Positions 13,474 through 38,580 of a DNA stretch of 38,580 nucleotides are shown in pieces. The stretch comes from an uncultured Ruminococcus sp. (GTDB lineage Bacteria > Bacillota > Clostridia > Oscillospirales > Ruminococcaceae): assembly GCA_902788785.1 (NCBI GenBank), contig CADALT010000021.1:1-38580 (forward strand). Direction: 5' to 3'. The position numbers were made by a program, and so were the translations under genes. The notes below the pieces were generated by a model. The model was not told the DNA's origin. It did no database searches and saw nothing but the letters and a program-made list of their open reading frames with translations. Numbering within the stretch: the stretch's first letter is position 1; every line of letters starts with the position of its first letter.

Positions 13474-16206
13474 TTATTCGGTCTCATCGTCGGTCACTGT
13501 CTCATCGACCATCTGCAATGTCACAGTCGTATCCGATGGCTTTGATGCCACGGAGACCTTGACCACAGGCTCGGTGTCGATGCTCTTGATGCCCTTGATG
13601 TGTGATGCTATCATAGCTATATCCGTTACATTCACACCGTCATCCGCATTGACATCAGCCATCACGATAACGTCATCCGACATCGCTTTGATGCCCTTGA
13701 TATGCGCAGCTATTATCGCAATATCCGTAACGTTGACGCTGCCGTCCATGTTCACATCGCCGTAGGGATATATCTTCGCATCGTTCAATGAGGCACTGTC
13801 ACCGACCTCAGCAGTTTTGCCGTCGGCAATGACGAAATCAATGGACACAGGCGCATAGGCTTTCTTGATGACCCAGGCGGTGTACTTGCCGTCGGGAAGC
13901 TTTGCGCAGAAACTGCCGTCCGAGACCGTCGCCATGATGCTGTCGCCCTTTTCGCTGACGAATACCACCTTCACCGCCGATGTGTCAACGCTCTTATCAA
14001 GCGTCACCACCGCATTGTAAGGTTCGTCCTTCTCGTCTTTATCATCGGGACCCTTATAATCATCGGGCTTGACTATCTCGAAAGTATTCGATGCAGTACC
14101 GCTGTAGTTGCCTATACCCGTGATGGTTATTGTAGCTGTACCGACATTTATATTGTTCTTGTACTCTGCGGTGAAGTCAACGCCCTCGGTCAGCAGCTGA
14201 CCGCTCACCTGACTGCGCAGATTGAGAGTCCTGATAATAGGCTGACCCGTGTACTTGACCTCGGATAGATTTGAGCTTTCCCACGGGAAGCCGATGTCCG
14301 CAGGGTCTATGCGGAAACTGTAAGTGATGCTGTCAATGTAGTCACCCATGCCCGTGATAACGACCTGACCCTTGCCGACGTTCAGGTTATCGGAATATTC
14401 GGCTTTATAATCCTTGCCGTTTACCAGAGTACGGCTGCCCTCTTTAATGGTTATCTTGGGCTTTATCTCTGAACCCGTATAGGTCAGCCCATCGGTGTTC
14501 ACAGTTATATTTGTATCCTTTATGGAAACCTGCCCACGCTTTTCTATGGAGAATTCGGCGGACTTACTTCCGCTGAAATAGCCCATGCCCGTGACAGTCA
14601 CCTTAGCCGTGCCTATCTTGTCATTATCGGTGTAAGCCACATTATAGTCAACGCCCTCTGTCAGACGTTTGCCGCCTGCATACACCTTGACCGCAGGCTT
14701 TACAGCACTGCCTGTATATACCGCTTTATCATAAGCAAGCTTTACCTCTGCCGCCGTCAGTGACTTCGCAGGCAGCACCTCTTCATCTATGCGCTTTTGA
14801 CACTCACTGCATATGCGGTATCGCAGACCGTCCTCGGTATCGGTAGCTTGTTTCTCCACTATCCAGTCGCCTCGGGTATGTTTGTGTTCGATGTTGAGCA
14901 CCACTTCCGTCTCAACTATCTCGTCCATAGGCGCATCTTTTTTGCCTACATAAAGGAACACCTTGCCCACCTTATCGGCGGTTATATCAGCTGTGCCGCC
15001 CGACTGTGACATGGTCATATATTCCTTGGCTGACTTGGTCTTGCCGTTTTCATCCTTTTCATCTGTCGAGGTCCATACCGTGTAATTCCCGTTGCTCAGC
15101 GGATTATTATATCCCACGATATGCATGGACTTGCCAACTTCAAGGTCATAGGACTTCTTATCGAAGCCCACTGTATAATCGCTCTCGTCCAGCAGGTCGA
15201 AATAGTTTACCTTATAGGATATGGGCGATTCCTTGCCGTCCTTGGTTATGCCCGATATAGTAACGCTCACCACATCGTCCTCGGGAAGCTTGCCCGGGTT
15301 GAATATGATACAGCCGCCTGTACCGTAAACATCGTTATTAACAGCAAAGTACCCGACCATATCGTTCTTGTCGGTCTTTTTGCCTGTGGTGTCTTCGGCG
15401 TTCTCGAAGTTCCAGGTCTTATCGGTCAGCTTAGAGGTCAGTGTTACCTTTACCTTTGATGCATCGGGCTTATCATAAGCCTTGCCCAGTGTCACGGAAT
15501 AAGCATAACCGTTCTCATTATTGCCCAGCAGTTCGTAGGGCATGACATAGGGCGGCCAGCAGACATAATCGCCCGTGAATTTATCATCTCTCGAACGGTC
15601 ACAAACATACATCGCCGTACCCTTGCCCACCATGCCGAGCCCCGTCTTTTTCATATCGGGGTTGAGTATCCAGCGCCTGTGCCCCAGTGTCGAGATATTA
15701 TGTGCATCGGTATCGGACATATAGCCCTCCAGCATAGACTCCTGTATGTTCATGTAGCCTATGCCGATATTTGACTGACCTGCGCCCGACTTCGCCAGTG
15801 CATACACCTCATCACTCATGACCGCAGGTTTCTTAGGGTCATGGGAAAGCACATCGTTTATGTTTATAATAAGGCTTGCGTGCTGTGCCAGCTTATTGTA
15901 CTCATCATCCAGCTCCACATCATAGGGCAGACCTGCAAGGTAACGGCAGAAGTTCACTGAATTGAGCCCTTCCTCCAGAGTATCCTTGCTGAGCTCACCT
16001 GCATTTGTGGGCGAACTTGTGGAATAAGCCTTGGTATATTCGGTGCCTGAATGTATATCGAAATATAATCTTTGATACATCTCACGGATATCATCCTGAT
16101 AATGCCGCTCAAGTTCAAATGCGCTGACTGACAGCACGCTGTAGAACGCTGCTGCTGATGCTGCCGCAGCCGCAAGGGCATTTCTTATCAGCTTAACAGT
16201 CAACAT
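13474..16206 (-). CDS. Secreted CAP-domain protein with Ig-like repeats and dockerin
   Basis: 910 residues. Signal peptide 1-29 (cleavage after VSA). A CAP/SCP domain covers about 75-260, with the strongly conserved 'LGHRRWILNP' (174-183). After it come a beta-rich region, a Cys-containing 'HKHTRGDWIVEKQATDTEDG' module of clostridial surface proteins with CSEC, and three Ig-like repeats of the pattern YTG..KP.....LT.G.DY...Y..N...G.A.VTITG.G.Y.G. A carboxypeptidase-regulatory-like stretch leads to a dockerin (about 815-876) with two calcium loops (DVNMDGSVNVTDIA and DVNADDGVNVTDIA) and a 34-residue acidic tail. The dockerin implies attachment to a cohesin outside the cell; the CAP domain's role is unknown. 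RBS GGAGGT precedes the ATG. A small GATC-bounded hairpin (16218-16242) lies in the leader. Confidence 0.9.
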   Translation of the reverse strand: MLTVKLIRNALAAAAASAAAFYSVLSVSAFELERHYQDDIREMYQRLYFDIHSGTEYTKAYSTSSPTNAGELSKDTLEEGLNSVNFCRYLAGLPYDVELDDEYNKLAQHASLIININDVLSHDPKKPAVMSDEVYALAKSGAGQSNIGIGYMNIQESMLEGYMSDTDAHNISTLGHRRWILNPDMKKTGLGMVGKGTAMYVCDRSRDDKFTGDYVCWPPYVMPYELLGNNENGYAYSVTLGKAYDKPDASKVKVTLTSKLTDKTWNFENAEDTTGKKTDKNDMVGYFAVNNDVYGTGGCIIFNPGKLPEDDVVSVTISGITKDGKESPISYKVNYFDLLDESDYTVGFDKKSYDLEVGKSMHIVGYNNPLSNGNYTVWTSTDEKDENGKTKSAKEYMTMSQSGGTADITADKVGKVFLYVGKKDAPMDEIVETEVVLNIEHKHTRGDWIVEKQATDTEDGLRYRICSECQKRIDEEVLPAKSLTAAEVKLAYDKAVYTGSAVKPAVKVYAGGKRLTEGVDYNVAYTDNDKIGTAKVTVTGMGYFSGSKSAEFSIEKRGQVSIKDTNITVNTDGLTYTGSEIKPKITIKEGSRTLVNGKDYKAEYSDNLNVGKGQVVITGMGDYIDSITYSFRIDPADIGFPWESSNLSEVKYTGQPIIRTLNLRSQVSGQLLTEGVDFTAEYKNNINVGTATITITGIGNYSGTASNTFEIVKPDDYKGPDDKDEKDEPYNAVVTLDKSVDTSAVKVVFVSEKGDSIMATVSDGSFCAKLPDGKYTAWVIKKAYAPVSIDFVIADGKTAEVGDSASLNDAKIYPYGDVNMDGSVNVTDIAIIAAHIKGIKAMSDDVIVMADVNADDGVNVTDIAMIASHIKGIKSIDTEPVVKVSVASKPSDTTVTLQMVDETVTDDETE

Positions 16207-25286: not shown

Positions 25287-26504
25287 TCAAATTTTTTCAG
25301 CAGTGATATTGCGTACCATAACATAGAATATATACTGGTCGTCCGCCCTACCGATGAGCCTTACCGAACTCCTGACCCAGATCTTGTCATCGCTGCCGGG
25401 CACGGTCCTGTAAGTCTCGCACTCTTCCTCATTGCCCGACTCGATAGCCCGTTCAAGAGTCTCCTGATAGATCTTCTTACCCTCTTCATCAGCTATCTCC
25501 CAAGGGTCGGAAGAGAGCAGTTCCTTCTCGGTCAGGTTTATGCCGAGCTCGGACATATATTTGCGGTTGACACGGGTCAGTTCCAGCCTGCCGCCACGGT
25601 ATGTCACAATGGCTGCACCGCCCACGTAGTTGTTGAACAGCAGCGTTTCCATGGAATTAGGGTCCCAGAATTTTGCAGCGTCCATCTCGGTGGTCATATG
25701 TATAACAGGCTGCATGGGTTCGTGTTCAAGCTTGGTCATTATCTCAAGGAACTTTTCCCCGTCCACAGGTTCGGAATACAGATAGCCCTGTATGTAGCTG
25801 CACCCTATGCTCTGCATATAGTCTGCCTGCTTGCGTGTCTCAACGCCCTCGGCGATAACGGGAGTATCCAGCCACTTGGTCATCTGCACTATCGCACTGA
25901 TGATAGCGCCGCCTCGTCCGCCGACATTGCCGCTTAAAAATCTCATATCCAGCTTGATAACGTCCACGTCCAGATCTTTCAGCACGTTCAGCGAAGAATA
26001 TCCGCTTCCGAAATCGTCCATCTCCACGATATATCCTATATCATGCAGCTTTTCAAGCACGCTCGATACCAGCTCCATACCGCCTATGGCAGAGGACTCC
26101 GTTATCTCCACATGGATAAGCTCCACAGGTATCTCATACTTCTGCCTTATCTTTTCAAGCTCTTCCACATATTTGCTCCTGAACACATCATACCTCGACA
26201 TATTCACCGATATGGGCACGGTGTCGATGCCGTTATCCAGACAATATCTCTGGAACTTGCATACGTGCTCGAACACATACAGGTCGGCAACACTGATAAA
26301 GCCTATCTCTTCCAGTATCGGTATGAAATCCGAAGGATACTGCATACCGTACTCGGGGTGTTTCCACCTCATCAAAGCCTCTGCTCCTATCATCTTGCCC
26401 GTGGAATGATTGATCTTGGGCTGATAGCACACAAAGATATGCCCCTCTCTCAGCGCTTCATCAAAGCTGTCAAGAAGTTCCTGCTCGGACATTCGTCTTT
26501 CCAT
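25287..26504 (-). CDS. EAL-domain cyclic-di-GMP phosphodiesterase with C-terminal PAS domain
   Basis: 405 residues from ATG at 26504, chosen because GGAGGG lies 8 nt before it; the in-frame ATG at 26528 has no RBS and falls only a few bases after the predicted transcription start. The EAL domain (about 1-260) has EAL at 42-44, DDFGSGYSSL (163-172), KLDMRFL (184-190) and AEGVET (218-223), all needed for hydrolysing c-di-GMP, so it should be active. The C-terminal part (about 290-405) is PAS-like and could sense a ligand. No membrane segment, so cytoplasmic. Single-gene unit with own promoter and terminator. Confidence 0.92.
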   Translation of the reverse strand: MERRMSEQELLDSFDEALREGHIFVCYQPKINHSTGKMIGAEALMRWKHPEYGMQYPSDFIPILEEIGFISVADLYVFEHVCKFQRYCLDNGIDTVPISVNMSRYDVFRSKYVEELEKIRQKYEIPVELIHVEITESSAIGGMELVSSVLEKLHDIGYIVEMDDFGSGYSSLNVLKDLDVDVIKLDMRFLSGNVGGRGGAIISAIVQMTKWLDTPVIAEGVETRKQADYMQSIGCSYIQGYLYSEPVDGEKFLEIMTKLEHEPMQPVIHMTTEMDAAKFWDPNSMETLLFNNYVGGAAIVTYRGGRLELTRVNRKYMSELGINLTEKELLSSDPWEIADEEGKKIYQETLERAIESGNEEECETYRTVPGSDDKIWVRSSVRLIGRADDQYIFYVMVRNITAEKI

Positions 26505-26542
26505 TATCTCAGCCCTCCGTTTACTCATTGATTTATACTAAA

Positions 26543-26778: not shown

Positions 26779-27465
26779 ATGATGAAAAAATTACTCGCAT
26801 TTTTCACATCGGCACTCATTCTGACAGCAGGCAGCATAAACGCAGCTGCCGCAGGTCAGGGCAAGGGCGATGTCAACAGTGACGGCAGGATAAATGTGAC
26901 GGATATTGCCGTTACTGCCGCACATATAAAAGGTATAAAGGCAATGAGCTCTTCTCAGCAGAAGCTTGCTGATGCTGACGGCAGCGGCAGGATAGATGTT
27001 TCTGACATTGCCGTTATCGCAGCCCATATCAAGGGCTTGAAGTCCATCGGCTCGGGCAGCGGCTCATCTTCTAATTCTGATGACAGGGGCAGCCAGCTTT
27101 TTGACCTGACTAACAGGGAGCGTACCTCCGCAGGGCTTTCGGCTTACAAGTACAGCTCCTCGCTGACAAAGGCAGCTCAGATAAGGGCTAAGGAAATAGC
27201 TAATACATTCTCCCATACACGTCCCAACGGCAGCAGGTGCTTCACCGTACTGGACGAGCTCGGCATAAATTACTATTCAGCCAGCGAGAACATCGCAGGC
27301 GGTCAAAGTTCCGCAAGCGAGGCTGTCAGCGACTTCATGGGTTCACAGCACCACCACGATGCGATAATGAGCACGCAGTACACTCACATGGGTACAGCCT
27401 GCTATTATGACAGCAGCTCACGCACCTATTACTGGGTACAGCTGTTCGGCACAGGTGACCTGTAA
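26779..27465 (+). CDS. Secreted protein with N-terminal dockerin and C-terminal CAP domain
   Basis: 228 residues. Signal peptide about 1-25 (cleavage after an AAAA run). A dockerin with two calcium loops covers 29-90 (DVNSDGRINVTDIA and DADGSGRIDVSDIA). A Gly/Ser linker (91-103) joins it to a CAP domain (about 105-228) with SHTRP (145-149), SENIAGG (169-175), HHHD (191-194) and 'TYYWVQLFG'. Those His and Glu positions fit the CAP metal-binding cleft. Most dockerins are C-terminal; here it comes first. Predicted to bind a cohesin outside the cell and display the CAP domain. The next gene starts 3 nt after its stop, so the two are cotranscribed. Confidence 0.92.
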   Translation: MMKKLLAFFTSALILTAGSINAAAAGQGKGDVNSDGRINVTDIAVTAAHIKGIKAMSSSQQKLADADGSGRIDVSDIAVIAAHIKGLKSIGSGSGSSSNSDDRGSQLFDLTNRERTSAGLSAYKYSSSLTKAAQIRAKEIANTFSHTRPNGSRCFTVLDELGINYYSASENIAGGQSSASEAVSDFMGSQHHHDAIMSTQYTHMGTACYYDSSSRTYYWVQLFGTGDL

Positions 27466-28041: not shown

Positions 28042-28737
28042 CTATATGCTCGCTATCGCCGCTGTGATAACGTCCTCTATGCCGCATATCCTTTCAAGCT
28101 TAGTCTTGTCGGGCGAAGACTTCATAGCCGCCAGGTCAGCCCTCCACAGTACCAGTGTGTTCACGGTCAGTGAGTTTATCCGCTCCGCCAGGGTGCTGTT
28201 GTTCACCGTAAGTTCGGTGATGAGCAGCATACCCTGCATTGCAAGTGTCTTTGAAAGCTCCAGATCTTTCAGCCGCTTCTGCGCAAAATCTCTGTACTGT
28301 ATGTGTGCCGAACTCAGCTGCATTTCGTCAATATGCTTCTCCAGCGCATCATAAGCAGCCTCCAGTTCGTCTGTACTATCCTCCAGCAGCTTTTTAAGGG
28401 TATCCAGCATCATATTCTCCTTGCAGAGCCCCATGTACAGCTCTCTGAGCACCTCGGAGATCTTCTGCGCTTCCCTGTCAGCCTGCGCTGCACGGTCTAT
28501 CATCCTTGCATGGCTTATGCTGCTGTATTCCCGCCTGAATGCCGATAATCCGCTGACGACCAGCTTCTGCGCCATAAGCTTCATCATGCTCACAGCCTTG
28601 TCCCTGCGCTTGTCCTGCTGTATATTGAATATTATCTCCGATACATCAGCTATCTGCTTCTGTAACGAAAATCCATAGGCAGGCAGCTTTTCAAGGCTCA
28701 TCATATCTTCTGTAAATATTGTTTTCTCTCTCATCAT
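28042..28737 (-). CDS. TelA-like helical protein
   Basis: 231 residues, almost entirely helical and rich in coiled-coil-like heptads (for example 'LEDSTDELEAAYDALEKHID'). The C-terminal part, 'AMQGMLLITELTVNNSTL' to 'INSLTVNTLVLWRADLAAM', recalls the TelA (toxic anion resistance) family, in which a similar 'IQNNN..L...I..TV...WR.Q.A.AL' block is conserved; full TelA proteins are longer, so this would be a short relative. TelA-type proteins often occur with TerD-like genes, none of which are here. It is the last gene of a four-gene operon and its ATG overlaps the preceding stop by 1 nt (TGATG). Confidence 0.6.
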   Translation of the reverse strand: MMREKTIFTEDMMSLEKLPAYGFSLQKQIADVSEIIFNIQQDKRRDKAVSMMKLMAQKLVVSGLSAFRREYSSISHARMIDRAAQADREAQKISEVLRELYMGLCKENMMLDTLKKLLEDSTDELEAAYDALEKHIDEMQLSSAHIQYRDFAQKRLKDLELSKTLAMQGMLLITELTVNNSTLAERINSLTVNTLVLWRADLAAMKSSPDKTKLERICGIEDVITAAIASI

Positions 28738-29618
28738 CAGATCACCTTAGCCAGCTTTATATACCGATCAAGATCTATCTTCTTAAAGAATCTCTTGCTG
28801 TCCTCGTTTATGTCACCGCCGTCAATACCCATCTGTGCGGGCGATGATATGACTATATCACTGCTCGGTATACCGAATATCGACCTGAACTGATCCTCAC
28901 TCAGCGGTCTGCCGTAGTAGGGATACCAGTTGTCCTCACGAAACTCCATCGACTCCATTATCCTGAGCACTATGCGCCTGAGAAACATCACCGAGCACAT
29001 GGGATAATAGCACTTTTTCAGGTTTATGGGCTCCGACGGAGATTTCAGGCGCACCTCCGAATTGAACACCTCGCTCCTGTTATAACAGCTGCTGAACACT
29101 TTCAGGTCAACGCCTATGCCGTTGGCTTCAAGCAGCTTTATCAGGCTGAGTGTCAGCACGCCACGGTTCGCCACAGCCTGTTTGCCTGTCTGCACCGAGT
29201 ATGCCAGATTGAACCATATGGTCACGAACTTTTTCTCGGGCAGCCTTGACAGCCTGTACATGGCTTTCGGCTCGCCTGCCACGAATGCAGGCACGTTCGG
29301 GTGTGAACCTGCCATGGCTCTTTCCTTTTTGCGTGCGGTATTCTGTATTGATACGGTCTTTTCAAACTCCCTCTGCAAGCTGAGTGTCACATTAAAATCA
29401 ATATCATATCCGCCGATGAGATAATCCACCGCATTATTATAGGTATCCTCGGGAAATTCGGGCTTATTCATTTTGCTGTGCTGTTTCTGGAATATCCTGC
29501 TGTTGACCTTAGGCTCGCTGAGCAGATACATCTGCATATCGCTGAGGCTGTCAAACGCCGCATTGAATACCGTCATCTTCTTATACGGATATACTTTAAG
29601 ATTTATAAAATCTTTCAT
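28737..29618 (-). CDS. Unknown protein of the AAA+ operon, possibly DUF7192-like
   Basis: 293 residues, soluble, no signal peptide. Visible features: 'PNVPAFVAGEPKAMYR' and 'VTIWFNLAYSVQT' followed by 'RGVLTLSLIKLLEANGIGVDLKVF', an alpha/beta pattern like the von Willebrand A-like or DUF7192-type proteins that often sit beside CobS-like AAA+ ATPases in phages and mobile elements. That resemblance is from memory of the pattern and is weak; no MIDAS motif (DxSxS) is seen. It overlaps the AAA+ gene by 4 nt and the TelA-like gene by 1 nt, so the three are made together. Confidence 0.72.
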   Translation of the reverse strand: MKDFINLKVYPYKKMTVFNAAFDSLSDMQMYLLSEPKVNSRIFQKQHSKMNKPEFPEDTYNNAVDYLIGGYDIDFNVTLSLQREFEKTVSIQNTARKKERAMAGSHPNVPAFVAGEPKAMYRLSRLPEKKFVTIWFNLAYSVQTGKQAVANRGVLTLSLIKLLEANGIGVDLKVFSSCYNRSEVFNSEVRLKSPSEPINLKKCYYPMCSVMFLRRIVLRIMESMEFREDNWYPYYGRPLSEDQFRSIFGIPSSDIVISSPAQMGIDGGDINEDSKRFFKKIDLDRYIKLAKVI

Positions 29619-31777
29619 CGTCTTGCTTCTCCGTTTCTTATGCCCGTTACCTCATCATGGAATATATTGAACAGCTGACCGCTCTGTCTCGGGGCGGAGT
29701 AAAACCTGCTCATCTCACGCTCCAGAAAAGCCAGATATTCGTTATCTTTTGTCTCTATGAACTCATACCTCATTATTGAGACTGCATCATAGCTGCCGTG
29801 GTCGAGGTATTTCTTTATGCTTGTGGCATCACGGGTGGTGAATATGCCGGGAGCTGCTATCTGGTTTTCTTTGCTCCATGCGGTGGTCGCTGCACGGAAC
29901 TGTTCAGCGAACTCGAACCACTCGGGATAGTTGTGGAGTATCGCTTTCTCCAGTCGGTTATCGTAATCGACATATATCGCCGTGAACCTCTGCTGCAATG
30001 ATTCCTCTATCTTCTCACGGGTGTTGTAGTTCCTGTCGGCACCGCTGCCAGAGGTATTGCCTGCGGCAATGATACGGAAATTCGGGTGGCGCTGTACACG
30101 CTCGCCGTTTGGGAAGCAGTAGCTTGCATTCTTGCCGTTTGACATAAAGCTGTTTAGCTTGACAGCTGCCCTGATATTACCGTTATCGAACTCATCGCAG
30201 AACACTATTCCGCCGTACTTATACGCACGGTAGAAGGCAGGGTAGTTATATCCGCCGTCCGCTGTCTGAAATCCCAGCAGGTCGTACTCCTCATTTATGT
30301 AGCCAATATCCAGATACTCTACGCCCAGCAGTGCGGCTATCTGTCCCACCAGATAAGTCTTTCCGCAGCCCGAGGGTCCTATGAGATACGGGTTAGAGTC
30401 CTCAATAACAGCGGTGATTATATCATCGAAGTGCTCATGATACAGCGCACCGTTCTCATCTATATCATGCTTTTTCTGCTCCATGAGTCTTGCAAATCTG
30501 TCCTTGAAGGAATAGCTCTCATCAAAGTACAGATTAGGTGTCATATCCGCAGGTTCCTGACAGCGCAGCTCGTTCTGCCTGATGAGCGAGGGCACTGCTG
30601 CCACCGCCGATACCGCAGGCACCACTGTGACCTCCTGCGCCTCTTCCGCCTGCTTTGACTTTTCTGTATCGAAGTTACGGCTGAACTCGTCAACACGGAT
30701 TATTCTCTCCACCAGTTCATCGCTCTTCTGCACCTGTGTTATGATGTTTTTCAGCTCACCGTTATTGAGCATTGCAGATGCACGGTCGATGGCTTTGTTG
30801 GCTTCGGTGTTGATGCGGAAAAGCTCTGCTGCGGTGTTATCCTTGATGGTCGCTGCGACCATCTTCAGCTCCCTTATCTTGCTGTCCGCAGACTCCACGA
30901 CCTCACGCACCAGATTATCCTTCTCGAAGATTATGCTGTCGTGCTCCTCGTTCAGGAAAGCGTCGTATGCCCGCCTCAGTTCAAGCTCGGCACCCTTAGC
31001 CTCACGCCTGAGCTTTTCGGTCTCCTCCATGGTCATGTTTTTAAGAGCCTTCTCGCTGTTTTCGGTAAAGCTTACGAAATTGCTGAGCCTTGTATCTGTC
31101 AGGTCGAGAGTATGTCTTGCACCGTCCAGCCTGTCCTGCGCCTCACGCAGCAGCATCTCGGTCCTGCCCAGAGTTTCCTCGCTTATATCGTATACGCCCG
31201 CAGCCCTTGCCGCAGAAACTATCAGCTTTTCTGTCTCCGCAGCCTTATCCTCGGCACTGCTTATCCTGAACGCTGCATTTATCAGCGCCGAAGAAAAGCT
31301 CTTCTCGTCCAGGAAAAACTGCCTTGCACCGATGGCATAGTCCTCTATATTAGCCAGTCTTCTTGCCACCGAGGGTATATCCGCCAGCGCACACATGGTC
31401 TCAAGATAAAGCTGCTTATCCTTAAAAGCCAGGTATATCTTCCTTGAAAAAAGCCCCGAAAAATATATGCCGTCCTTCTCGAAGATCTTTAAGAACACTG
31501 CCTTTGCCAGACCGTAGTTTCTTGTATCCTCACCCAGCGGCACGACAGTCCTGTATATGCTCTCGGCTTCATTCATCACTGCCACAGGTTCTTTCTCTGT
31601 CTTTGAAGCAAGCACTTTCTCCACCAGTTCCGTGAGCACTTCCTCCGACCCGAAAACATTCTTGTCGGGGTCACGCTTTATCTCATTAAGGTATATGCTT
31701 AGCTGTGTATACTTATCATCCAGATTAAGTGCTGACTTTACAGCCTGTATCATCGAATCTATCTTGCCCTTTGCCAT
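29615..31777 (-). CDS. AAA+ ATPase (AAA_5/CobS-MoxR-like) with long helical N-terminus
   Basis: 720 residues. The first 380 are mostly helical with long heptad-rich stretches (about 205-350, for example 'EKLRREAKGAELELRRAYDA'), followed by a short Val/Ala-rich linker (about 380-400). The AAA+ module lies at about 410-720: Walker A GPSGCGKT (467-474), Walker B IVFCDEF (524-530), sensor-1 N574 in AAGNTSGSG and a candidate arginine finger R597 in 'EESLQQRF'. 'DLLGF' and 'AFYRAYKYGG' are typical of the MoxR/CobS branch, which usually remodels or inserts metal into partner proteins bearing a VWA-like domain. RBS GAGGTAGC; starts 9 nt after the preceding stop. Confidence 0.85.
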   Translation of the reverse strand: MAKGKIDSMIQAVKSALNLDDKYTQLSIYLNEIKRDPDKNVFGSEEVLTELVEKVLASKTEKEPVAVMNEAESIYRTVVPLGEDTRNYGLAKAVFLKIFEKDGIYFSGLFSRKIYLAFKDKQLYLETMCALADIPSVARRLANIEDYAIGARQFFLDEKSFSSALINAAFRISSAEDKAAETEKLIVSAARAAGVYDISEETLGRTEMLLREAQDRLDGARHTLDLTDTRLSNFVSFTENSEKALKNMTMEETEKLRREAKGAELELRRAYDAFLNEEHDSIIFEKDNLVREVVESADSKIRELKMVAATIKDNTAAELFRINTEANKAIDRASAMLNNGELKNIITQVQKSDELVERIIRVDEFSRNFDTEKSKQAEEAQEVTVVPAVSAVAAVPSLIRQNELRCQEPADMTPNLYFDESYSFKDRFARLMEQKKHDIDENGALYHEHFDDIITAVIEDSNPYLIGPSGCGKTYLVGQIAALLGVEYLDIGYINEEYDLLGFQTADGGYNYPAFYRAYKYGGIVFCDEFDNGNIRAAVKLNSFMSNGKNASYCFPNGERVQRHPNFRIIAAGNTSGSGADRNYNTREKIEESLQQRFTAIYVDYDNRLEKAILHNYPEWFEFAEQFRAATTAWSKENQIAAPGIFTTRDATSIKKYLDHGSYDAVSIMRYEFIETKDNEYLAFLEREMSRFYSAPRQSGQLFNIFHDEVTGIRNGEARR

Positions 31778-31786
31778 TTTGCTACC

Positions 31787-32908
31787 TCATTCCGTCTTTG
31801 TAAGATATTTTTCAGTTATCTGTGCGCAGGTCATACCTCTGAACTCGTCTTTTATTTCGGCAGTTTCCGAGCCGTTTATGTACCTGTAATAATATCCGCC
31901 GTGCTCATCACCGAGGTTCTTGACCTTGACCTCGCCCGATATGCCCGTCTGTATCAGCATTCGGTCATCCTGCGAGAATATCTCATGCACCGCCTTTATC
32001 TCACCCCATATACCGTCTGACATTTTCTCGCTGTATATCTGTATTATCATTCCGCTTGAATTATCCGCTATCATCTCACGGCTGTGTTCATCGCCTTTTA
32101 CGAAGATCCTTTCGCCCCAGGGCAAAATATACCCCGTAAAGCTGTCATCCTCCACACCGCAGATGTACCGCTCTGTATCCGTAAGCTGTGCTCTTTGCAT
32201 TTCCTCTTTTTGGGTATCTAAGAAAACTATCTGTCCATCAGCAATTATGCGCTGTTCACAGCTGCACTCAAATAAGCTGTAGCTGTATTCGTGCCTCAGT
32301 TCCCTGCTGGTAGAGCTTTCGGTGGAAACATATATGCTGCCTGCTTCGTATTTCAAGAATATCTCCGCCGTATCCGCCGCAGAAAAAATATTCCCGAAAC
32401 GGTATCGGTATCCGCCGTCCTCTTCCGTAAAGCTGAACGGTATATCCTTCTCCTCATCATCGACCTTACAGCTGATGATAAACCTGCTGCGGCTGCCTTT
32501 TATCTCTCTTATTTTCAGCTCTATGCCGATATCCTCGTATATCTTCCCGAGAAAATACGTCACCAGCTCCTGTGAAAAAGCCGCCCTGCTGTAGGTGATC
32601 GCCTTGTCGTTATACCTTGCCGCATCACCTAGGTATGCAAACCTGTCCATGCTGCCAAGTTCCAGCCTGCCCCTGAGTATCTCTTCCGTGTACTCATCCA
32701 TACAGGCATCGGGTGAAATGCGGTACAGGCTATCGACCTTTTTTATCAGCATCATCCACTCATCATCATATTCGCACAGGTTGACACTGTTACCGTCCGA
32801 AATCACCAGCAGACCCTTAGTCCCGTCGGGCAGGGTGTAATATCTGATAAGATCAGCCTTCTCCATCTGCATCATATCAAGCAAAGTTTTGCTCATATAC
32901 GGTGTCAT
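31787..32908 (-). CDS. Unknown soluble protein heading the AAA+ operon
   Basis: 373 residues from ATG at 32908, chosen because GGAG sits directly against the in-frame ATG at 32917 but 9 nt before this one. No signal peptide or membrane segment. The sequence is beta-rich and acidic with several repeated-looking blocks ('YYTLPDGTKGLLVISDG', 'GYILPWGERIFVKGDEHSREM', 'GGYRYRFGNIF' and 'GGYYYRYINGSETAEI'), perhaps consecutive small beta domains. I do not recognise the family. It is first in the four-gene operon and carries a structured leader. Confidence 0.72.
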   Translation of the reverse strand: MTPYMSKTLLDMMQMEKADLIRYYTLPDGTKGLLVISDGNSVNLCEYDDEWMMLIKKVDSLYRISPDACMDEYTEEILRGRLELGSMDRFAYLGDAARYNDKAITYSRAAFSQELVTYFLGKIYEDIGIELKIREIKGSRSRFIISCKVDDEEKDIPFSFTEEDGGYRYRFGNIFSAADTAEIFLKYEAGSIYVSTESSTSRELRHEYSYSLFECSCEQRIIADGQIVFLDTQKEEMQRAQLTDTERYICGVEDDSFTGYILPWGERIFVKGDEHSREMIADNSSGMIIQIYSEKMSDGIWGEIKAVHEIFSQDDRMLIQTGISGEVKVKNLGDEHGGYYYRYINGSETAEIKDEFRGMTCAQITEKYLTKTE

Positions 32909-32930
32909 CGTCTTCATCTCCGTTCTCTGA

Positions 32931-32978
32931 AAGATGCGCTGTATCCCCGTAAAACAGGGACTATCCTGCCTGCATCTT
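32931..32978 (-). promoter_or_regulatory. Structured 5' leader of the AAA+ operon
   Basis: In the minus-strand transcript AAGATGC and GCATCTT (32972-32978 and 32931-32937) close an outer stem around an inner hairpin TCCCTGT/ACGGGGA (32954-32960 with 32944-32950). The inner stem contains a U-G pair on the minus-strand RNA that would be a C-A mismatch on the plus strand, which points to function in this transcript. It ends about 23 nt before the start codon. Confidence 0.5.
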
Positions 32979-32987
32979 CACCTGTAT

Positions 32988-33016
32988 ATTATACCATATA
33001 CTCCCCAAAAAGTAAA
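32988..33016 (-). promoter_or_regulatory. Promoter of the AAA+ operon
   Basis: On the minus strand TTTACT (33011-33016), 17 bp, TATAAT (32988-32993). Transcription would begin just before the structured leader. Confidence 0.7.
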
Positions 33017-33110
33017 GATTTCGTGCCGCCTGTTGCATCTTTTTAACAAAAACACATAATGCCGAAATGAGTAAATAGTATATGTTGATACCACCCTTTT
33101 TGCGCACAAA

Positions 33111-33146
33111 AAAACGGCTGTCCCGATAAGATGGACAGTCGTTTTT
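33111..33146 (-). terminator. Terminator, probably ending the secreted dockerin transcript
   Basis: AAAACGGCTGTCC (33111-33123) pairs with GGACAGTCGTTTT (33133-33145), T-runs on both sides in the respective directions. On the minus strand it lies about 235 nt downstream of the dockerin gene stop at 33379, implying a long 3' UTR. Confidence 0.75.
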
Positions 33147-33378
33147 TCAGTGTCGAAGCTGCGGACATTTGGCAGTGACCCCCAAAAAGGAAAATTCGTC
33201 CGCAGGCTTCATCTATAGGAGAAGTTGAAGAAAACATATAGTAACCGACATTAAAATTCCTACATTCGACATTTGTTTCGATGGATATGGAATGTACAGA
33301 AATTTCTGTCGTTTAATATAATTAAGTAAGTTGTGTGTTTTTGTTTTATTCGATGTGATAGTTTTGTCTTGTTTGCCT
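33147..33378. other. Gene-free region with several inverted repeats
   Basis: No credible coding frame. It holds an imperfect stem GAAGC-TGCGGAC (33155-33166) with GTCCGCA-G-GCTTC (33198-33210), a second inverted repeat TACATTC (33261-33267) with GAATGTA (33290-33296), and a perfect 14-bp palindrome ACAGAAATTTCTGT (33296-33309). These could belong to the 3' UTR of the dockerin gene, a small RNA, or a decayed insertion (see findings). Confidence 0.45.
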
Positions 33379-34629
33379 TTATACCAGTGCCTTTATGCCC
33401 TTGATATGTGCAGCTACCTTTGAAATGTCTGATACGGAGATATTGCCGTCGTGATCGACATCGGCATTCTTCATCATGCTGTCATCAATGGGCTTGATAC
33501 CCTTGATGTGTGTTGCGATAACGGATATATCCGAAACATCTACGTTATCGCTGCCGTTTACATCACCGGGCATCGATGGTGCAGCAGCCTTTGCTGCGTT
33601 CAGCTCATTTATCTTAGGCAGTGTTGCATTTATCTTCTGCGATGCTGTCTCTATCTGTGTAAGATCAGGTGTTTGACCTGCATCAGTATAATAGATCGCA
33701 ACGATGTTATAAGCATCTATCAGGTCATAGGTATCGGCTATATCATTCACAGCTTTGAATCTCAGCTGACAAAGATCATGCTTACCCTTCTTGCAGGAAT
33801 TGATCTGATCGACAGTCATATTACTAATAATCTCAGCGCTCGCATAATAAGGCTTATTCATTCCAAGGAATGTGTAGTCATTCTGACCCAAATTGTTGAA
33901 CTCCTGATCTATATCCTCGGCAAAACCCATCAAATAATCAAAATCATTGGGTATATCAAAATGGTCCTCACCCACATAGCTGTCATATGCCAGATCTTCC
34001 GAGAATATCAGCGAGGTCTGGAAGGTTGATACGTCATCTGCCACATCGAAGCTCACATCATAAGTAATGATATCGCCTGCCTTTGCAGATGCCTTATCGG
34101 GAGTGAAGGTATAATCCATGTCGGTGTAGCCCATAAAATCATAATATCCGCCTATGGAATAGGGAACTATATCTTCATTTCTTTCACCCGCAGCCATTTC
34201 TCTGACATTTTTTACCTCAAGGGCGCCCTCGATGCCGTTGGTTTTCAGCAGTACGCTGCCCAGCTTCATATCCTTTACATCGCCTGCAACTTTTCCGTCC
34301 TTATCGTATGATACGAAATTCATATCATCCGAAAGTCCGACCAGCTCATGACCCAGTTTCTTAGCTATGGTGTTCTCGTTGAGCTTTACGTTCACAAGCT
34401 CCATACCCGCAGGCATCTTCAGATCAAAGCTGATACCCGACGCCGCAGCGTCCTGCGAATACATGATATCGTACTTGATGTACTCGCTGCCCTTTACAGT
34501 ATCACTCCTGCTTACCAGTGTAACTGTGGGATTTGCCTGTGCTGTTGTCTCGGCGCTTGCAGTAATGAACATACTTGCTGCCATTGTGAGCGCAGCTGTT
34601 ATAGCCGCCGCTTTCTTAAATCCACACAT
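33379..34629 (-). CDS. Secreted protein with two cohesin-like beta-sandwich domains and a C-terminal dockerin
   Basis: 416 residues from ATG at 34629, chosen because GGAGG lies 8 nt upstream and a signal peptide follows (residues 1-26, cleavage after ASA); the frame extends further but without RBS. Domain 1 (about 33-145) starts 'TVTLVSRSDTVKGSEYIKYD'; domain 2 (about 168-320) has 'AKAGDIITYDVSFDVADDVS' and 'NDYTFLGMN'. Both have the Gly-Asp opening strand and 'F.L..P.G.E' pattern of cohesin/CBM-like beta sandwiches. The dockerin (354-414) has loops DVNGSDNVDVSDIS and DVDHDGNISVSDIS. The domains resemble the ectodomain of the neighbouring sigma factor fusion. Likely sits outside the cell, attached through its dockerin, possibly recruiting or blocking other dockerins. 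Confidence 0.85.
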   Translation of the reverse strand: MCGFKKAAAITAALTMAASMFITASAETTAQANPTVTLVSRSDTVKGSEYIKYDIMYSQDAAASGISFDLKMPAGMELVNVKLNENTIAKKLGHELVGLSDDMNFVSYDKDGKVAGDVKDMKLGSVLLKTNGIEGALEVKNVREMAAGERNEDIVPYSIGGYYDFMGYTDMDYTFTPDKASAKAGDIITYDVSFDVADDVSTFQTSLIFSEDLAYDSYVGEDHFDIPNDFDYLMGFAEDIDQEFNNLGQNDYTFLGMNKPYYASAEIISNMTVDQINSCKKGKHDLCQLRFKAVNDIADTYDLIDAYNIVAIYYTDAGQTPDLTQIETASQKINATLPKINELNAAKAAAPSMPGDVNGSDNVDVSDISVIATHIKGIKPIDDSMMKNADVDHDGNISVSDISKVAAHIKGIKALV

Positions 34630-35020
34630 TTTGTATTCCTCCATTTTCTGAACTATACTAAAGGCTAGAGCAAAATAGGCGATAAAAGCTTGCACGAACC
34701 ATAATGTACGGCGAGTGTGAGCTTTTAGAGTCATATTTTGCCGTTGACTTTAGTATTATGGCTAGAGCAAATCAGCCCTTAGCAATGTTTATATCATCCG
34801 CCCCGATACCCTGCCATTCCCGATATACTTATTTATTCGGTACGTGTATAGGTACGGCACCCGTAATGATATGTCTTCCTTGCGTCTGTTCTTGGTGTTT
34901 GTTTGCCTTTCACTTGTTCTGCTTATTATAGTTTTCGCCTCAGCCACCGATCCTCGCAGATCTTTTCTGCATACAGTTATGAGAGTCAGGCTGAAAGCTT
35001 TTTATCGTTCCGGAACTTTC
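34630..35020 (-). promoter_or_regulatory. Long leader of the secreted dockerin gene, no gene seen
   Basis: About 385 nt separate the ECF-like promoter from the start codon. I see no small ORF with a good RBS. It contains a palindrome GTTCCGGAAC (35007-35016) near the predicted transcription start and a large irregular hairpin near the 3' end (34655-34756). A TATAAT at about 34922-34927 on the minus strand lacks a fitting -35. Confidence 0.45.
34655..34756 (-). repeat. Long irregular inverted repeat in the leader of the secreted dockerin gene
   Basis: Matching blocks in order: ATACTAAAG (34655-34663) with CTTTAGTAT (34748-34756), GCAAAATA (34670-34677) with TATTTTGC (34734-34741), TAAAAGCT (34683-34690) with AGCTTTTA (34720-34727), CAC with GTG near the loop. 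GGCTAGAGCAAA occurs twice in direct orientation, at 34663-34674 inside one arm and at 34760-34771 just outside the other, so two alternative folds are conceivable. Confidence 0.6.
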
Positions 35021-35022
35021 AC

Positions 35023-35054
35023 TACTTAGATACCGTGAACTGCAAAAAGGTTTT
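35023..35054 (-). promoter_or_regulatory. ECF-type promoter element upstream of the secreted dockerin gene
   Basis: On the minus strand AAAACC (35049-35054) is followed, 16 bp after AACC, by TATCTAAGTA (35023-35032). The geometry AAC(C)-16-nATC matches ECF sigma promoters. The same element, including much of the spacer, recurs at 36993-37024 ahead of the sigma transcription unit. Confidence 0.65.
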
Positions 35055-35089
35055 AAATAAAATTGTAAATGATTTATGAACACACAAAA

Positions 35090-35119
35090 CCTCCCGAAAA
35101 CCTTGTGGTTCTCGGGAGG
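35090..35119 (-). terminator. Terminator of the sigma-fusion gene
   Basis: On the minus strand CCTCCCGAGAACC pairs with GGTTTTCGGGAGG over 13 bp (one G-U pair) with a 4-nt loop, followed by TTTTGTG. It lies 12 nt after the stop at 35132 and insulates the dockerin gene's promoter. Confidence 0.82.
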
Positions 35120-35131
35120 CATATCATACTG

Positions 35132-36826
35132 TTATCGTGTTTGCTCATCGGTAGTATAGCTATCTATTTCTCCATAGTATAGATCATTATAATCGTCTTG
35201 ATCAAAATATTTATTGAAACGATAATCAACACTTTCCATTGCTTTGCTCAGCTCTTTCTGATCTGCTTTTCCTACTGGGGTAAGCTCCAAATCAAACTCG
35301 CTGTCTTTCAGTGATTCAACTTCATCATTGATATTATTGATTGCTAGCTTGTTATAGTTAAACAGATCTATATTATCTTTAGTAGCATTTTCTTTCAAGC
35401 GCATGAATAAAGAACCTATTTTTATACCATTATCAGCACTTACCCTTTTATTGACCTGAAATGTATCATATCCCAAAAATGCATAATCATTGCCTCCGGT
35501 GGTTTCTTTTATTATTGGATCTGTTACATGGTTTGCAGCAAAATTATCAAATCCAAAGGTTTTCGTCATCGTGCTTTCATCAATTTGAACCCCCACATAT
35601 TCAATTCCCTCGGGTATATCAAAATTAAACTGTAAAGCAGTGAGGTCGTTATTACCCTTATATGTAAAATCATACTTTATAACATCACCCGACTGCGCTG
35701 TAAAAGCATTTTCTGTGGTGCCCATGGTTATGAGGGGCAGGGTCGAAGTGATGTCATTATCAGTGGTCTGATCAGGTCCCGGTTGTGGTGCCTGGGGCTG
35801 CTGCGGCGCAGTCTGGGTCTCGGGCACATATACATCGCCCATGTTATCGTTTTGTACTGCCTGTATCTTCGCTGTATCATCAGGCACAGAGGACTCTGTT
35901 ACTGTATCGTGACGGCTTTCGTCCTCACTTTCCGCACTGTCAGCCACTGCCTTGTTTTCTCCCCTGCTGCTGTCAGTTTCGACAAAAGAAGAATCGGGGC
36001 GCACGTTCATGGATTCGTGATCGACCACGACCTCGCTGCGCTTCATGCCGTTCATCATCATAATGCCCGTTCCGCCAACAACAGCTGCACAGGCGGCTGC
36101 AACGACCTTTGAAGAAAAGCTGCTGAATACCCTCGGCACAGCATAACCCGACTTTATCTTCACCCTGCCGTCCACAGCCCTGAACATGGCTGATACAGGC
36201 GCACAAGACAGCACAACGCCCTTTGCCTGCAATGCATCTATCTTCTTGCGCAAATGATTTTTTGCCTGATGTATCCTGGATTTTACAGTATTTACCGATG
36301 CTCCTGTCAGATTAGAGATCTGCTCCAGAGTTTTGTCCCTGTGATAGAAAAGGTATATGGCTTCACGCTGATCGTCGTTCAGCGAATTTATCATCTGCGC
36401 CAGTATCTCCTTAGTCTCCTCGCTTTCAGCATAATCCTCGGGCAGCATGATCTGATCGTCATCTAACTCCGTCCGATGCTGCATAGCCAGTTCAAGCCCG
36501 TCACTTGCATTGTCTTCATCATCAGCCAGCAGTTCCACACGCTGATGACGGCTCTCTTTCCTGCCCTGTGCAAAGAATTTATTCTTAGCAATGGTGTGCA
36601 GCCACGCCGAAAGTCCGTTCTCATTCTTGAGTTCCGAAATATGCTTCATCGCCTCAAGAAAAGTCTCCGACACCAGATCCTCTGCATCCTGCGGCTTTGC
36701 ACCCAGCTTTATAAGATAATAGTATATTTTCTCCTTGTAAACACGGTAGATCGCATCGAAAGCTGCGCTGTCACCGTTTGCTGCGAGTTTTACAGTCTCG
36801 CTGTTTATGATGTTACTGCGCTCCAC
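35132..36826 (-). CDS. Membrane-tethered ECF-type sigma factor with extracellular cohesin-like domain
   Basis: 564 residues from GTG at 36826 (RBS AAGGAG 8 nt upstream). Region 2 (about 18-90) has 'DAIYRVYKEKIYYYLIKLG' and 'DAEDLVSETFLEAMKHI'; region 4 (about 140-195) has 'LNDDQREAIYLFYHRDKTLE' and the helix-turn-helix 'ISNLTGASVNTVKSRIHQAK'. One hydrophobic helix follows (about 241-258, basic residues before it), then a Ser/Asp/Glu/Pro/Gln-rich linker (260-360), a beta-sandwich domain (about 365-515) and an acidic Tyr-rich tail. Topology should be sigma inside, sandwich outside. The ectodomain resembles those of the neighbouring secreted protein. Release or activation of the sigma part on an outside signal, perhaps by proteolysis, is inference. 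No separate anti-sigma gene is recognisable. Confidence 0.88.
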   Translation of the reverse strand: MERSNIINSETVKLAANGDSAAFDAIYRVYKEKIYYYLIKLGAKPQDAEDLVSETFLEAMKHISELKNENGLSAWLHTIAKNKFFAQGRKESRHQRVELLADDEDNASDGLELAMQHRTELDDDQIMLPEDYAESEETKEILAQMINSLNDDQREAIYLFYHRDKTLEQISNLTGASVNTVKSRIHQAKNHLRKKIDALQAKGVVLSCAPVSAMFRAVDGRVKIKSGYAVPRVFSSFSSKVVAAACAAVVGGTGIMMMNGMKRSEVVVDHESMNVRPDSSFVETDSSRGENKAVADSAESEDESRHDTVTESSVPDDTAKIQAVQNDNMGDVYVPETQTAPQQPQAPQPGPDQTTDNDITSTLPLITMGTTENAFTAQSGDVIKYDFTYKGNNDLTALQFNFDIPEGIEYVGVQIDESTMTKTFGFDNFAANHVTDPIIKETTGGNDYAFLGYDTFQVNKRVSADNGIKIGSLFMRLKENATKDNIDLFNYNKLAINNINDEVESLKDSEFDLELTPVGKADQKELSKAMESVDYRFNKYFDQDDYNDLYYGEIDSYTTDEQTR

Positions 36827-36950
36827 CTATCTCACTCCTTATCGTTTCGTCGTCTTCATTCTCCTCGGGATACTTATTTTCCAGATCATCCAGCATCCCC
36901 AACTTTGCCATGTGCTCAAATATTGTCTTTAATAACTGCCTGAACGTCAT
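36813..36950 (-). CDS. 45-residue small protein overlapping the start of the sigma gene
   Basis: ATG at 36950 with a near-ideal RBS (AAGGAG, 36959-36964, 8 nt spacing) and stop TAA at 36813-36815, which lies inside the sigma gene, overlapping it by 14 nt in another frame. The product starts amphipathic (MTFRQLLKTIFEHMAKLGML) and ends strongly acidic (EENEDDE). It is the first gene after the ECF-like promoter, about 36 nt from the predicted transcription start. Overlap suggests translational coupling; it could be a regulator of the sigma factor or simply a coupling leader peptide. No family recognised. Confidence 0.62.
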   Translation of the reverse strand: MTFRQLLKTIFEHMAKLGMLDDLENKYPEENEDDETIRSEIGGAQ

Positions 36951-36992
36951 TTAACCATCTCCTTCAAAAACACTTTCCCATGAGTGTTCTGA

Positions 36993-37024
36993 TACTTAGA
37001 TGTCATGAAGTCCAAAATGGTTTT
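36993..37024 (-). promoter_or_regulatory. ECF-type promoter of the sigma transcription unit
   Basis: On the minus strand AAAACC (37019-37024), 16 bp after AACC, CATCTAAGTA (36993-37002). Close copy of 35023-35054: same spacing, and shared spacer bases including TTTTG and TTCA. Implies autoregulation by the encoded sigma factor. Confidence 0.65.
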
Positions 37025-37176
37025 AAAAATAAAAAATTTTTTTCAGCTTTTTTCTGTGATATTATAATTCGGCTGAACATACAAATATATTATATCACCA
37101 TATACTGCTATAGTAAAGTATTCAAATAAACCAAAACTTAAAATATGACAAATTGATAACAAACAATGAATTAAGA
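37025..37176. other. AT-rich divergent intergenic region
   Basis: Strongly AT-rich DNA between the sigma unit and the GGDEF gene. I see no gene here. Confidence 0.45.
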
Positions 37177-37205
37177 TTGACTGTTTTGAAACAATATGTT
37201 ATAAT
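37177..37205 (+). promoter_or_regulatory. Vegetative promoter of the GGDEF gene
   Basis: TTGACT (37177-37182), 17 bp, TATAAT (37200-37205). The leader to 37337 is about 125 nt and contains two more TATAAT boxes (near 37287 and 37304); I could not match it to a c-di-GMP riboswitch. Confidence 0.68.
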
Positions 37206-37336
37206 ATAAACAAAGAAATCAAAAATTACTGTTAATTTTGACAAATTCAAACAGACCGGAAGCAACGAAATTATAATAAACGCAGTATAATCAAAACGTT
37301 TACTATAATGGCCGGCAGAAACAAGTGTGGTGAATT

Positions 37337-38377
37337 ATGGAGAAAATAAAAAAATTATTATCCGTCCTTTTAATGAAGGTAAACGATGAAGAAATAAGGC
37401 AATGCAATAAAAATGTAGCCATGTCCGTGATCGTCTGTATCGCCTCGGGCATAATGCTTGTGATGAATATCATGAAGCATTCGACATTGATGACGATAAC
37501 ATCGATGATAATGATCGTCGGATTTAATCTTTCAGGCGTACTTGCGGCTGTTTACAAAAAGAACAAGGCATCTTCACTGATAATGGCATTCATTCTGACA
37601 GGAGTGTTCACAGTTTTCCCCATATCAGGCGGAAACGAAGGCTTTGCCGTATTATGGCTGCTGCTGATCCCATTGTTCAGCATAATACTGTTAGGCATGA
37701 AGATAGGGCTGACGATGAATTTATATTTCACACTGCTGATATTAGTTTTGTTCTACTCGCCGCTGAAGGTACATATCGTCGATTTTTATACAGATGATTT
37801 TATGGAGCGGTTCCCCATACTGTTTATGGCGGATTTTATCACAGCGCAGCTGCTTGCGATGAGTATGGAATATTATTACAGGGTAACTCGTATGCAGATC
37901 TACACAGATGATATGACGGGTGCATACAACAGAAAATACTTCATCGAAAAGCTCGATGATCCCGAGGTCCTCAAAGACGACCTGTGCATATCGGTCATTG
38001 ATGTCAACGGGCTTAAAGCGACCAATGATACCCTGGGACACGCCGCAGGTGATGAAATGATCTGTTCGGTGCCCATATGCGCCAGAAAAGCCTTTGGCGA
38101 TGACGTGATAATCTCCCGTACAGGCGGCGACGAATTTGCAATACTGACCTTCGGCAGCCCCGAAGAGATAGCATCAAAGGTCAAAATGATGAAAGAATAT
38201 GCCTTAAAATACAAGGGCAAATTTATCGGCGCAGTTTATCTTTCGGTGGGCATTGCCTGTCGAAGCGAATATAAAGACCTTCCCACCGAGGGGCTTTTCC
38301 AGACCGCAGATAAATTCATGTATGTGGATAAATCTGCATTTTACAGGCAAAAAGATCACGATCGAAGACGCAGATAG
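37337..38377 (+). CDS. Membrane-bound GGDEF diguanylate cyclase
   Basis: 346 residues. Six or so hydrophobic segments occupy about 27-178, forming a membrane sensor of unknown ligand. The GGDEF domain (about 187-335) begins 'DDMTGAYNRKYF' and has the active-site RTGGDEF (261-267), metal-binding D222 in ISVIDVNGLK and 'ATNDTLGHAAGDEM', so synthesis of c-di-GMP from two GTP is expected. The RxxD inhibitory I-site normally just before the motif is absent, so product feedback is unlikely. RBS is weak (GTGGTGA). Pairs functionally, in principle, with the EAL protein at 25287-26504. Confidence 0.9.
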   Translation: MEKIKKLLSVLLMKVNDEEIRQCNKNVAMSVIVCIASGIMLVMNIMKHSTLMTITSMIMIVGFNLSGVLAAVYKKNKASSLIMAFILTGVFTVFPISGGNEGFAVLWLLLIPLFSIILLGMKIGLTMNLYFTLLILVLFYSPLKVHIVDFYTDDFMERFPILFMADFITAQLLAMSMEYYYRVTRMQIYTDDMTGAYNRKYFIEKLDDPEVLKDDLCISVIDVNGLKATNDTLGHAAGDEMICSVPICARKAFGDDVIISRTGGDEFAILTFGSPEEIASKVKMMKEYALKYKGKFIGAVYLSVGIACRSEYKDLPTEGLFQTADKFMYVDKSAFYRQKDHDRRRR

Positions 38378-38400
38378 TTTGTTGAATGATCTAACGCACA

Positions 38401-38431
38401 AAGCGGCACCTGACAGCGTGCCGCTTATTTT
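38401..38431 (+). terminator. Terminator of the GGDEF gene
   Basis: AAGCGGCAC (38401-38409) pairs with GTGCCGCTT (38418-38426), followed by ATTTTTA. Confidence 0.8.
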
Positions 38432-38438
38432 TATACAC

Positions 38439-38474
38439 AAAAAAGAGGAAACAACGAACTTTCGTCATTTCCTC
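38439..38474 (-). terminator. Terminator of the tRNA-Trp gene
   Basis: On the minus strand GAGGAAA extends into TGACGAA and pairs with TTCGTTG and TTTCCTC (38445-38474), followed by TTTTTT, directly after the tRNA. Confidence 0.8.
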
Positions 38475-38482
38475 ATAAATTC

Positions 38483-38558
38483 TGGCAGGGGCAGAAGGAT
38501 TCGAACCCTCGGCACGCGGTTTTGGAGACCGCTGCTCTACCAACTGAGCTATACCCCT
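38483..38558 (-). tRNA. tRNA-Trp (anticodon CCA)
   Basis: On the minus strand a complete cloverleaf: acceptor AGGGGTA with TGCCCCT, D-arm with AGCTCAGTTGGTAGAGC, anticodon stem GCGGT/ACCGC around CTCCAAA (anticodon CCA, reading UGG), T-arm GAGGGTTCGAATCCTTC, discriminator G and an encoded CCA end. 76 nt. Confidence 0.96.
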
Positions 38559-38580
38559 AAAGAAGAAGTGGACCATCAGG

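Follow-up and report, generated by a model that had tools for sequence, protein, structure and literature searches.

How a signal from outside the cell might reach a sigma factor that carries its own sensor is the question raised by one gene of an uncultured Ruminococcus sp. The gene lies in a stretch of 38,580 nucleotides (contig CADALT010000021.1 of assembly GCA_902788785.1), hereafter called the window, and the features of the locus are collected in Table 1. The initial annotation described the gene product as ECF regions 2 and 4, a hydrophobic segment, a linker and an outer domain in one frame, and this organization is confirmed by Pfam, hydropathy and fold prediction.

Table 1. Features of the sigma factor locus (positions in the window).
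Feature	Position	Strand	Evidence
Transmembrane ECF sigma factor gene, 564 aa, GTG start	35132..36826	-	ORF and orthologues
Sigma-70 region 2 (residues 27-93)	36548..36748	-	Pfam PF04542, E 1.2e-12
Sigma-70 region 4 (residues 140-192)	36251..36409	-	Pfam PF08281, E 2.6e-11
Juxtamembrane motif KGVVLSCAPVSAMF (residues 202-215)	36182..36223	-	Alignment column counts
Predicted membrane helix (residues 241-259)	36050..36106	-	Kyte-Doolittle scan, charge asymmetry
Disordered polar linker (residues 260-362)	35741..36049	-	Sequence and low pLDDT
Cohesin-fold domain, predicted outside (residues about 363-522)	35261..35740	-	AlphaFold2 model, fold searches
Conserved 45-aa mini-ORF	36813..36950	-	Overlaps the sigma gene by 14 nt
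ECF-like promoter before mini-ORF and sigma gene (AAACC-N17-ATCTAA)	36996..37023	-	
Second ECF-like promoter copy, before the cohesin-like/dockerin gene	35026..35053	-	
Possible housekeeping (sigma-70 type) promoter, 10/12 matches with TG	37089..37117	-	Consensus scan
Terminator-like stem-loop of 14 pairs, closely following the sigma stop	35089..35120	-	
Predicted target: secreted, two cohesin-like domains and a type I dockerin	33379..34734	-	Dockerin_1, E 2.1e-9

The membrane-fused sigma factor and its outer domain

ECF membership of the protein is indicated by Pfam matches to region 2 and region 4 (r4_2) above cut-off with no region 3 match, and its TIGR02937 score reaches 95 bits (cut-off 42.9). 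A predicted helix and a further domain follow C-terminally to the sigma part within the single frame, as in one-component membrane-fused sigma factors. Residues 200-240 contain one Cys, and no zinc finger is matched by Pfam in the protein at E<=1. Among the scanned neighbours, Pfam recognizes no separate anti-sigma gene, and no separate RsgI gene stands beside the sigma gene, the neighbours being a mini-ORF, a dockerin protein gene and a divergent GGDEF gene. EAL and GGDEF proteins are encoded at 25287-26528 and 37337-38377 of the window, the GGDEF gene being the one divergent from the sigma operon, and adjacent genes for TelA-like, DUF7192 and AAA proteins and a fourth without clear family occupy 28042-32917.

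A hydrophobic segment, defined as a 19-residue scan window averaging at least 1.6 after region 4, is present in 54 of 55 sigma ORFs taken from the genomes of the genus (window included), the exception being L087. That of the window protein is Ala/Gly-rich and of moderate hydrophobicity (1.6-1.74 on the Kyte-Doolittle scan). Alignment A1 comprises 52 of these 55 ORFs (L040, L082 and L089, cut or short, are omitted), with Pfam region 2 in 52 and region 4 in 51, and alignment A4 comprises 45 sequences. In the 52 aligned sequences, proline 210 of the juxtamembrane motif is kept in 50 and the helix carries a proline in 30. For the 45 single-helix proteins, from which seven FtsX types, L082, L087 and L089 are left out, the 15 residues before the helix total 87 basic and 2 acidic residues, and the 15 after it 95 basic and 114 acidic. 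This charge asymmetry fits an inside N-terminus, and the sigma domains are taken to be cytoplasmic and the outer domain outside. Cysteine content, tried as a marker of outside location, is uninformative (1.02% vs 1.15%), and a full-length AlphaFold2 model built from three sequences is unusable for contacts between sigma part and helix (pLDDT 45).

The cohesin-like sensor proposed by the initial annotation finds support in the predicted structure of the outer domain, as the AlphaFold2 model and the fold searches give a cohesin jelly-roll. Pfam cohesin PF00963 gives no match to the window protein at E<=1 (HMMER filters dropping most matches above about 0.1), and a PDB sequence-profile search with the sensor returns no cohesin among five matches at E<=10; judging from these searches, the sensor lies beyond the reach of cohesin sequence models. 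Ruminococcal cohesins are described in passages of PMC11557425 as too divergent for standard models. The window sensor thus resembles the cohesins of ruminococcal scaffoldins in predicted fold and in divergence from such models, but differs in that its cohesin fold is fused to a sigma factor. The genome itself has 63 dockerin matches against a single Pfam cohesin, which lies at the cut-off itself, so that a dockerin is a natural ligand candidate for the cohesin version. Two more dockerin proteins, both with a CAP (cysteine-rich secretory) domain, are encoded at 26779-27465 and 13474-16206 of the window.

A family with varied outer domains

The same fusion occurs in two further genomes, as L101 in an uncultured Ruminococcus and as L100 in Ruminococcus sp. 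RGIG4311 (loci also numbered L010 and L011). The sigma part (residues 1-200) of the window protein is 85% and 81% identical to those of the two orthologues, whereas the part after the helix is 35% and 29% identical, so that the sensor side evolves much faster. A frameshift or assembly error joining two genes, the objection foreseen by the initial annotation, is rejected in view of these orthologues in two other assemblies and by three paralogues of the same plan, the genome encoding four such proteins in all. Within the genus, 22 of 29 genomes contain a match at E<=1e-10.

At the family level, a match at E<=1e-20 is present in 224 of 297 genomes, ordinary soluble ECFs included, with at most eight candidates scored per genome. 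At E<=1.5e-39, 63 matches are left, 60 of them with an open frame no shorter than 354 aa, and these 60 are spread over 31 genomes and 23 genera (the genus of the window included; counted by hand), two of them having a stop inside the match. The helix is found, with a value of at least 1.9, in all nine sigma ORFs checked from seven family-level loci, some of which were picked from the strong matches.

Clustering of the outside parts of the genus sigma ORFs at E<1e-4 gives 18 groups, of which nine have one member each. Two paralogues of the window's own genome, L053 and L058, are 90.4% identical across sigma part, juxtamembrane part and helix, but the final 185 residues of L058 have no match in L053, which indicates that sensors have been exchanged. 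By sequence comparison, the window protein is one member of a large family with many unrelated, exchangeable outer domains. Thus, the fusion of sensor and sigma factor stands as first annotated, but not as an isolated case.

An FtsX permease domain occurs in seven of the 52 aligned ORFs of the genus. In L062, L063, L065, L068, L069, L071 and L072, sigma factor and FtsX-type permease share a single frame of 1117-1201 aa, and another genus has a comparably long frame (L118, 1924-5382). Such frames resemble a sensor permease doubling as sigma factor. In a different sigma type, the permease is a protein of its own, related to the fused one and encoded beside the sigma gene (L056 4966-7941, L061 4236-7001, L067 3-2642, L070 174-3116 and L073 1-2244), with Pfam giving FtsX for L056, the one so examined. 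At L074 2418-4669, L089 96-1843 and L122 551-3606, each in a single assembly, sigma-sensor genes are apparently broken into two overlapping or adjacent frames.

Promoters, sensor-related neighbours and the mini-ORF

Upstream of both the sigma operon and its neighbouring gene stands the element AAACC-N17-ATCTAA, which we take to resemble a Firmicutes ECF promoter. In the form AAACCWTT-N13..15-ATCTAA, which like the other promoter patterns was chosen after inspection of the sequences, two exact sites exist in the genome (2.95 Mb, 90.6% complete), both at this locus, for a chance expectation of about 0.22 under a simple composition model. The two orthologue genomes contain 3 and 2 sites, each at the orthologous locus, and a reversed-pattern control gives 0 sites in all three genomes. 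A longer form of the motif, with up to two mismatches allowed, has one further site elsewhere in the genome. The sensor is related to both cohesin-like domains of the neighbour (E 4e-10 for the first, 8e-4 for the second), whose true start is probably at about 34644 according to orthologue comparison, and in all three cohesin-type loci such a sensor-related neighbour stands just downstream of the sigma gene on the same strand. We infer that the window sigma factor would drive both promoters, combining autoregulation with a dedicated target.

The terminator-like stem-loop stands between the sigma gene and the second ECF-like promoter; the stem-loop scan of the region found 3 vs 1.8 expected. 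The sigma-70-like site may provide basal expression, the consensus scan as a whole being near chance (10 found vs 7.0 +/- 2.5 expected). The leader of the predicted target transcript would span about 375 nt (34644-35019 of the window) and matches no Rfam family at gathering threshold, and the search for RNA elements in 32900-38580 returns one tRNA at the edge and nothing else.

The start of the mini-ORF is preceded by a ribosome-site-like AAGGAG. Related mini-ORFs precede 32 of the 55 genus sigma genes at E<0.01 (11 of the 32 being seeds), 39 of 55 at E<1, and 4 of 9 sigma genes of other genera at E<0.001, all E-values being computed for small search sets. Ten of these 32 mini-ORFs overlap the called sigma frame by 14 nt, while the others show offsets of -5 to +110, a spread partly due to start sites being called mechanically. 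Between the window and L038, the changes by codon position are [10,3,23], a third-position excess as in coding sequence. Four mini-proteins, some lacking the first or last codon, give no Pfam or NCBIfam match over cut-off. The reach of this conserved 45-codon gene into the start of the sigma gene suggests that a small additional protein may be involved, a point in which the one-protein reading of the initial annotation needs correction. The boldest guess would be a micro anti-sigma factor.

The paralogues display comparable arrangements with other motifs. The second motif, TAACC-N14..16-CGTCTAA, has 5 sites in the genome vs 1.4 expected by chance, two of them before the sigma paralogues L058 and L053 and three before two adjacent lipoprotein-like genes of contig C10. 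At E<=0.01, the L058 sensor matches only itself and these two C10 genes (45% identity, E 7e-49; 34%, E 1.6e-17), and L053, which has the second motif upstream, has no target of its own assigned. The sensor common to L048 and L053 has one more match, to a lipoprotein-like gene on C25 (E 5e-10), and the third motif, TAACC..CGACTAA, precedes both this gene and L048. It has 9 sites in the genome vs 1.7 expected by chance: one before L048, three on C25, two at the end of C30 and three elsewhere, these last preceding genes for an L,D-transpeptidase, a dockerin-VanY protein and a dockerin protein, in none of which sensor homology was found. With three of nine sites before genes without known sensor homologue, the rule that the sensor copies a domain of its target is not exclusive. 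Wall enzymes and dockerin proteins are found behind the L048 motif at L140 3260-4759, L141 1194-2084 and L142 1304-3442, which suggests that envelope control and cellulosome-type proteins are connected. At the ends of C30 (L143) and C25 (L144), near-identical promoter sequences are repeated in tandem upstream of a lipoprotein-like gene; C30 and C25 are probably contiguous here, the assembly having broken on the repeats.

A locus of another genus (L122; also L119) has two adjacent lipoprotein-like genes between two sigma genes, and each sigma sensor is related to one of the two lipoprotein-like proteins (E 2e-20 and 1e-11). In the retrieved flanks of the 55 genus sigma genes, sensor homologues were found only at the three cohesin-type loci, broken-gene fragments apart, which speaks against a general rule; for L039, the neighbour was found with the sensor of the window, not with that of L039 itself at E<0.1. 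A broad ECF promoter pattern occurs in 18 of the 55 sigma upstream regions vs 1 of 157 coding-sequence control windows, a count that is suggestive only because the pattern was shaped on some of the sequences, the control is coding and some upstream regions are short. An earlier, narrower pattern gave little outside the cohesin type.

A candidate signalling route and its relation to known systems

The interpretation that we favour, and hold to be somewhat probable, is that of a one-protein transmembrane signalling sigma factor whose cohesin-fold sensor would be a tethered copy of its target's domain. In the simplest case, the sensor, outside on its flexible linker, would meet a ligand also bound by the secreted protein, for example a dockerin or a polymer of wall or plant origin. 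The signal would then cross linker and helix and make the sigma part competent, probably through intramembrane cleavage at the Ala/Gly-rich helix, by analogy with what is reported for IutY and RsgI. The active sigma factor would transcribe its own operon and the gene of the secreted protein bearing the same kind of domain, and the newly made protein would compete for the ligand and damp the signal. Paralogues would follow the same logic with other sensors and promoters.

Cleavage is not the only conceivable mode of activation. CadC/ToxR-type membrane activators work while tethered to the membrane and without cleavage, and the sigma factor might likewise stay in place and be activated by conformational change or clustering. 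The juxtamembrane motif, whose proline is conserved in 50 of 52 sequences, could dock on the sigma part, and no protease was identified among the immediate neighbours. However, the characterized membrane-fused ECF sigma factor IutY is released by Prc and RseP, and the helix is Ala/Gly-rich, with a helix-breaking proline in 30 of 52, so that tethered activation seems unlikely. The mini-protein could also be the true inhibitor, as a soluble micro anti-sigma factor, the outer domain merely anchoring or tuning the complex. This would agree with its presence before 32 of 55 sigma genes (at E<0.01, with 11 seeds and a small search set), its end 14 nt inside the called sigma ORF in 10 of 32 and its coding-type third-position excess (e.g., [10,3,23]), whereas it belongs to no Pfam or NCBIfam family over cut-off, was not found before more divergent sigma members and may serve translational coupling alone; such a role appears possible, if on balance doubtful.

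The two promoters may belong to another sigma factor, with the window gene a mere regulon member, since the assignment of motif to sigma factor rests on position and the genome has more, weaker ECF-like matches. We consider this improbable, as all exact sites of the first motif in the three genomes fall at this locus, and the sigma paralogues differ in their motifs. As for the membrane, the moderate hydrophobicity of the segment would be compatible with a soluble cytoplasmic sigma factor bearing a cohesin-like regulatory tail, but the segment recurs in 54 of 55 sigma ORFs with strong charge asymmetry around it, homologous domains occur in proteins with signal or lipoprotein-type N-termini and seven of 52 relatives carry FtsX permease domains, which makes a non-inserted segment very hard to credit.

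The proposed transmembrane sigma factor has precedents, and the contrast drawn by the initial annotation with the usual separate anti-sigma factor has to be tempered accordingly, as membrane-fused ECF sigma factors are already known elsewhere. IutY, ECF48, ECF52 and ECF53 are listed as such in parts of PMC8999054 and PMC5826349. In the same passages, ECF52 (SCO4117 of Streptomyces) is described as an ECF sigma factor with helix, low-complexity region and outside carbohydrate-binding domain, with a zinc finger and a predicted activation by proteolysis, and as exclusive to Actinobacteria. ECF52, like ECF48 and ECF53, thus shares with the window protein the succession of sigma factor, helix, low-complexity stretch and outer domain, but it has a zinc finger, for which the window protein gives no match, and another outside domain, and the passages describing it (PMC8999054, PMC5826349) mention no co-encoded mini-ORF such as that of the window. 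IutY of Pseudomonas putida (ECF243) is, according to sections of PMC8999054, fused to a membrane-bound segment and released by Prc and RseP; it likewise unites sigma factor and membrane segment in one protein, but its fused part is the anti-sigma factor of a cell-surface iron-signalling system. ECF262, represented by Ruminococcus albus SFB89493.1, appears in Table 2 of PMC8999054 among ECF groups with regulatory extensions, in the class 'others'; it shares the genus name with the source of the window protein and may be the same or a sister group.

The comparison with SigI/RsgI made by the initial annotation is apt; a shared trait would be transmembrane sensing coupled to cellulosome-type genes. 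SigI is a different sigma type, and SigI/RsgI consists of two proteins with the sensor on the anti-sigma factor, whereas in the window the sensor is fused to the sigma factor. In Clostridium (Acetivibrio) thermocellum, SigI/RsgI senses substrate across the membrane and controls cellulosome genes, and RsgI is cleaved in its helix by RseP, as stated in parts of PMC12203970. In the open-access literature searched, no description was found of the sensor-copy rule, the mini-ORF, the FtsX fusions or a cohesin sigma factor.

More tentatively, Ruminococcus and its relatives may possess a class of self-referential one-protein sigma receptors, each with a cartridge-like tethered target domain and a dedicated microprotein, of which the cohesin version would measure unassembled dockerins and make the adaptor scaffoldin that docks them, doing the work of SigI/RsgI. 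The window system is a concrete candidate for how Ruminococcus senses its surroundings, one for which promoters, a predicted target and a small partner gene can be named. Such a candidate matters for cellulosome-making Ruminococcus because RsgI receptor sets are reported only in Acetivibrio-type cellulosome makers, as given in passages of a 2024 survey (PMC11557425). If the sensor is indeed a copy of a domain of the target, the ligand class and regulon of dozens of uncharacterized sigma factors would become predictable from sequence alone, and the parts could be used as modular outside-to-promoter switches. The versions of related bacteria, with their different sensors, may help explain how these organisms sense their surroundings.
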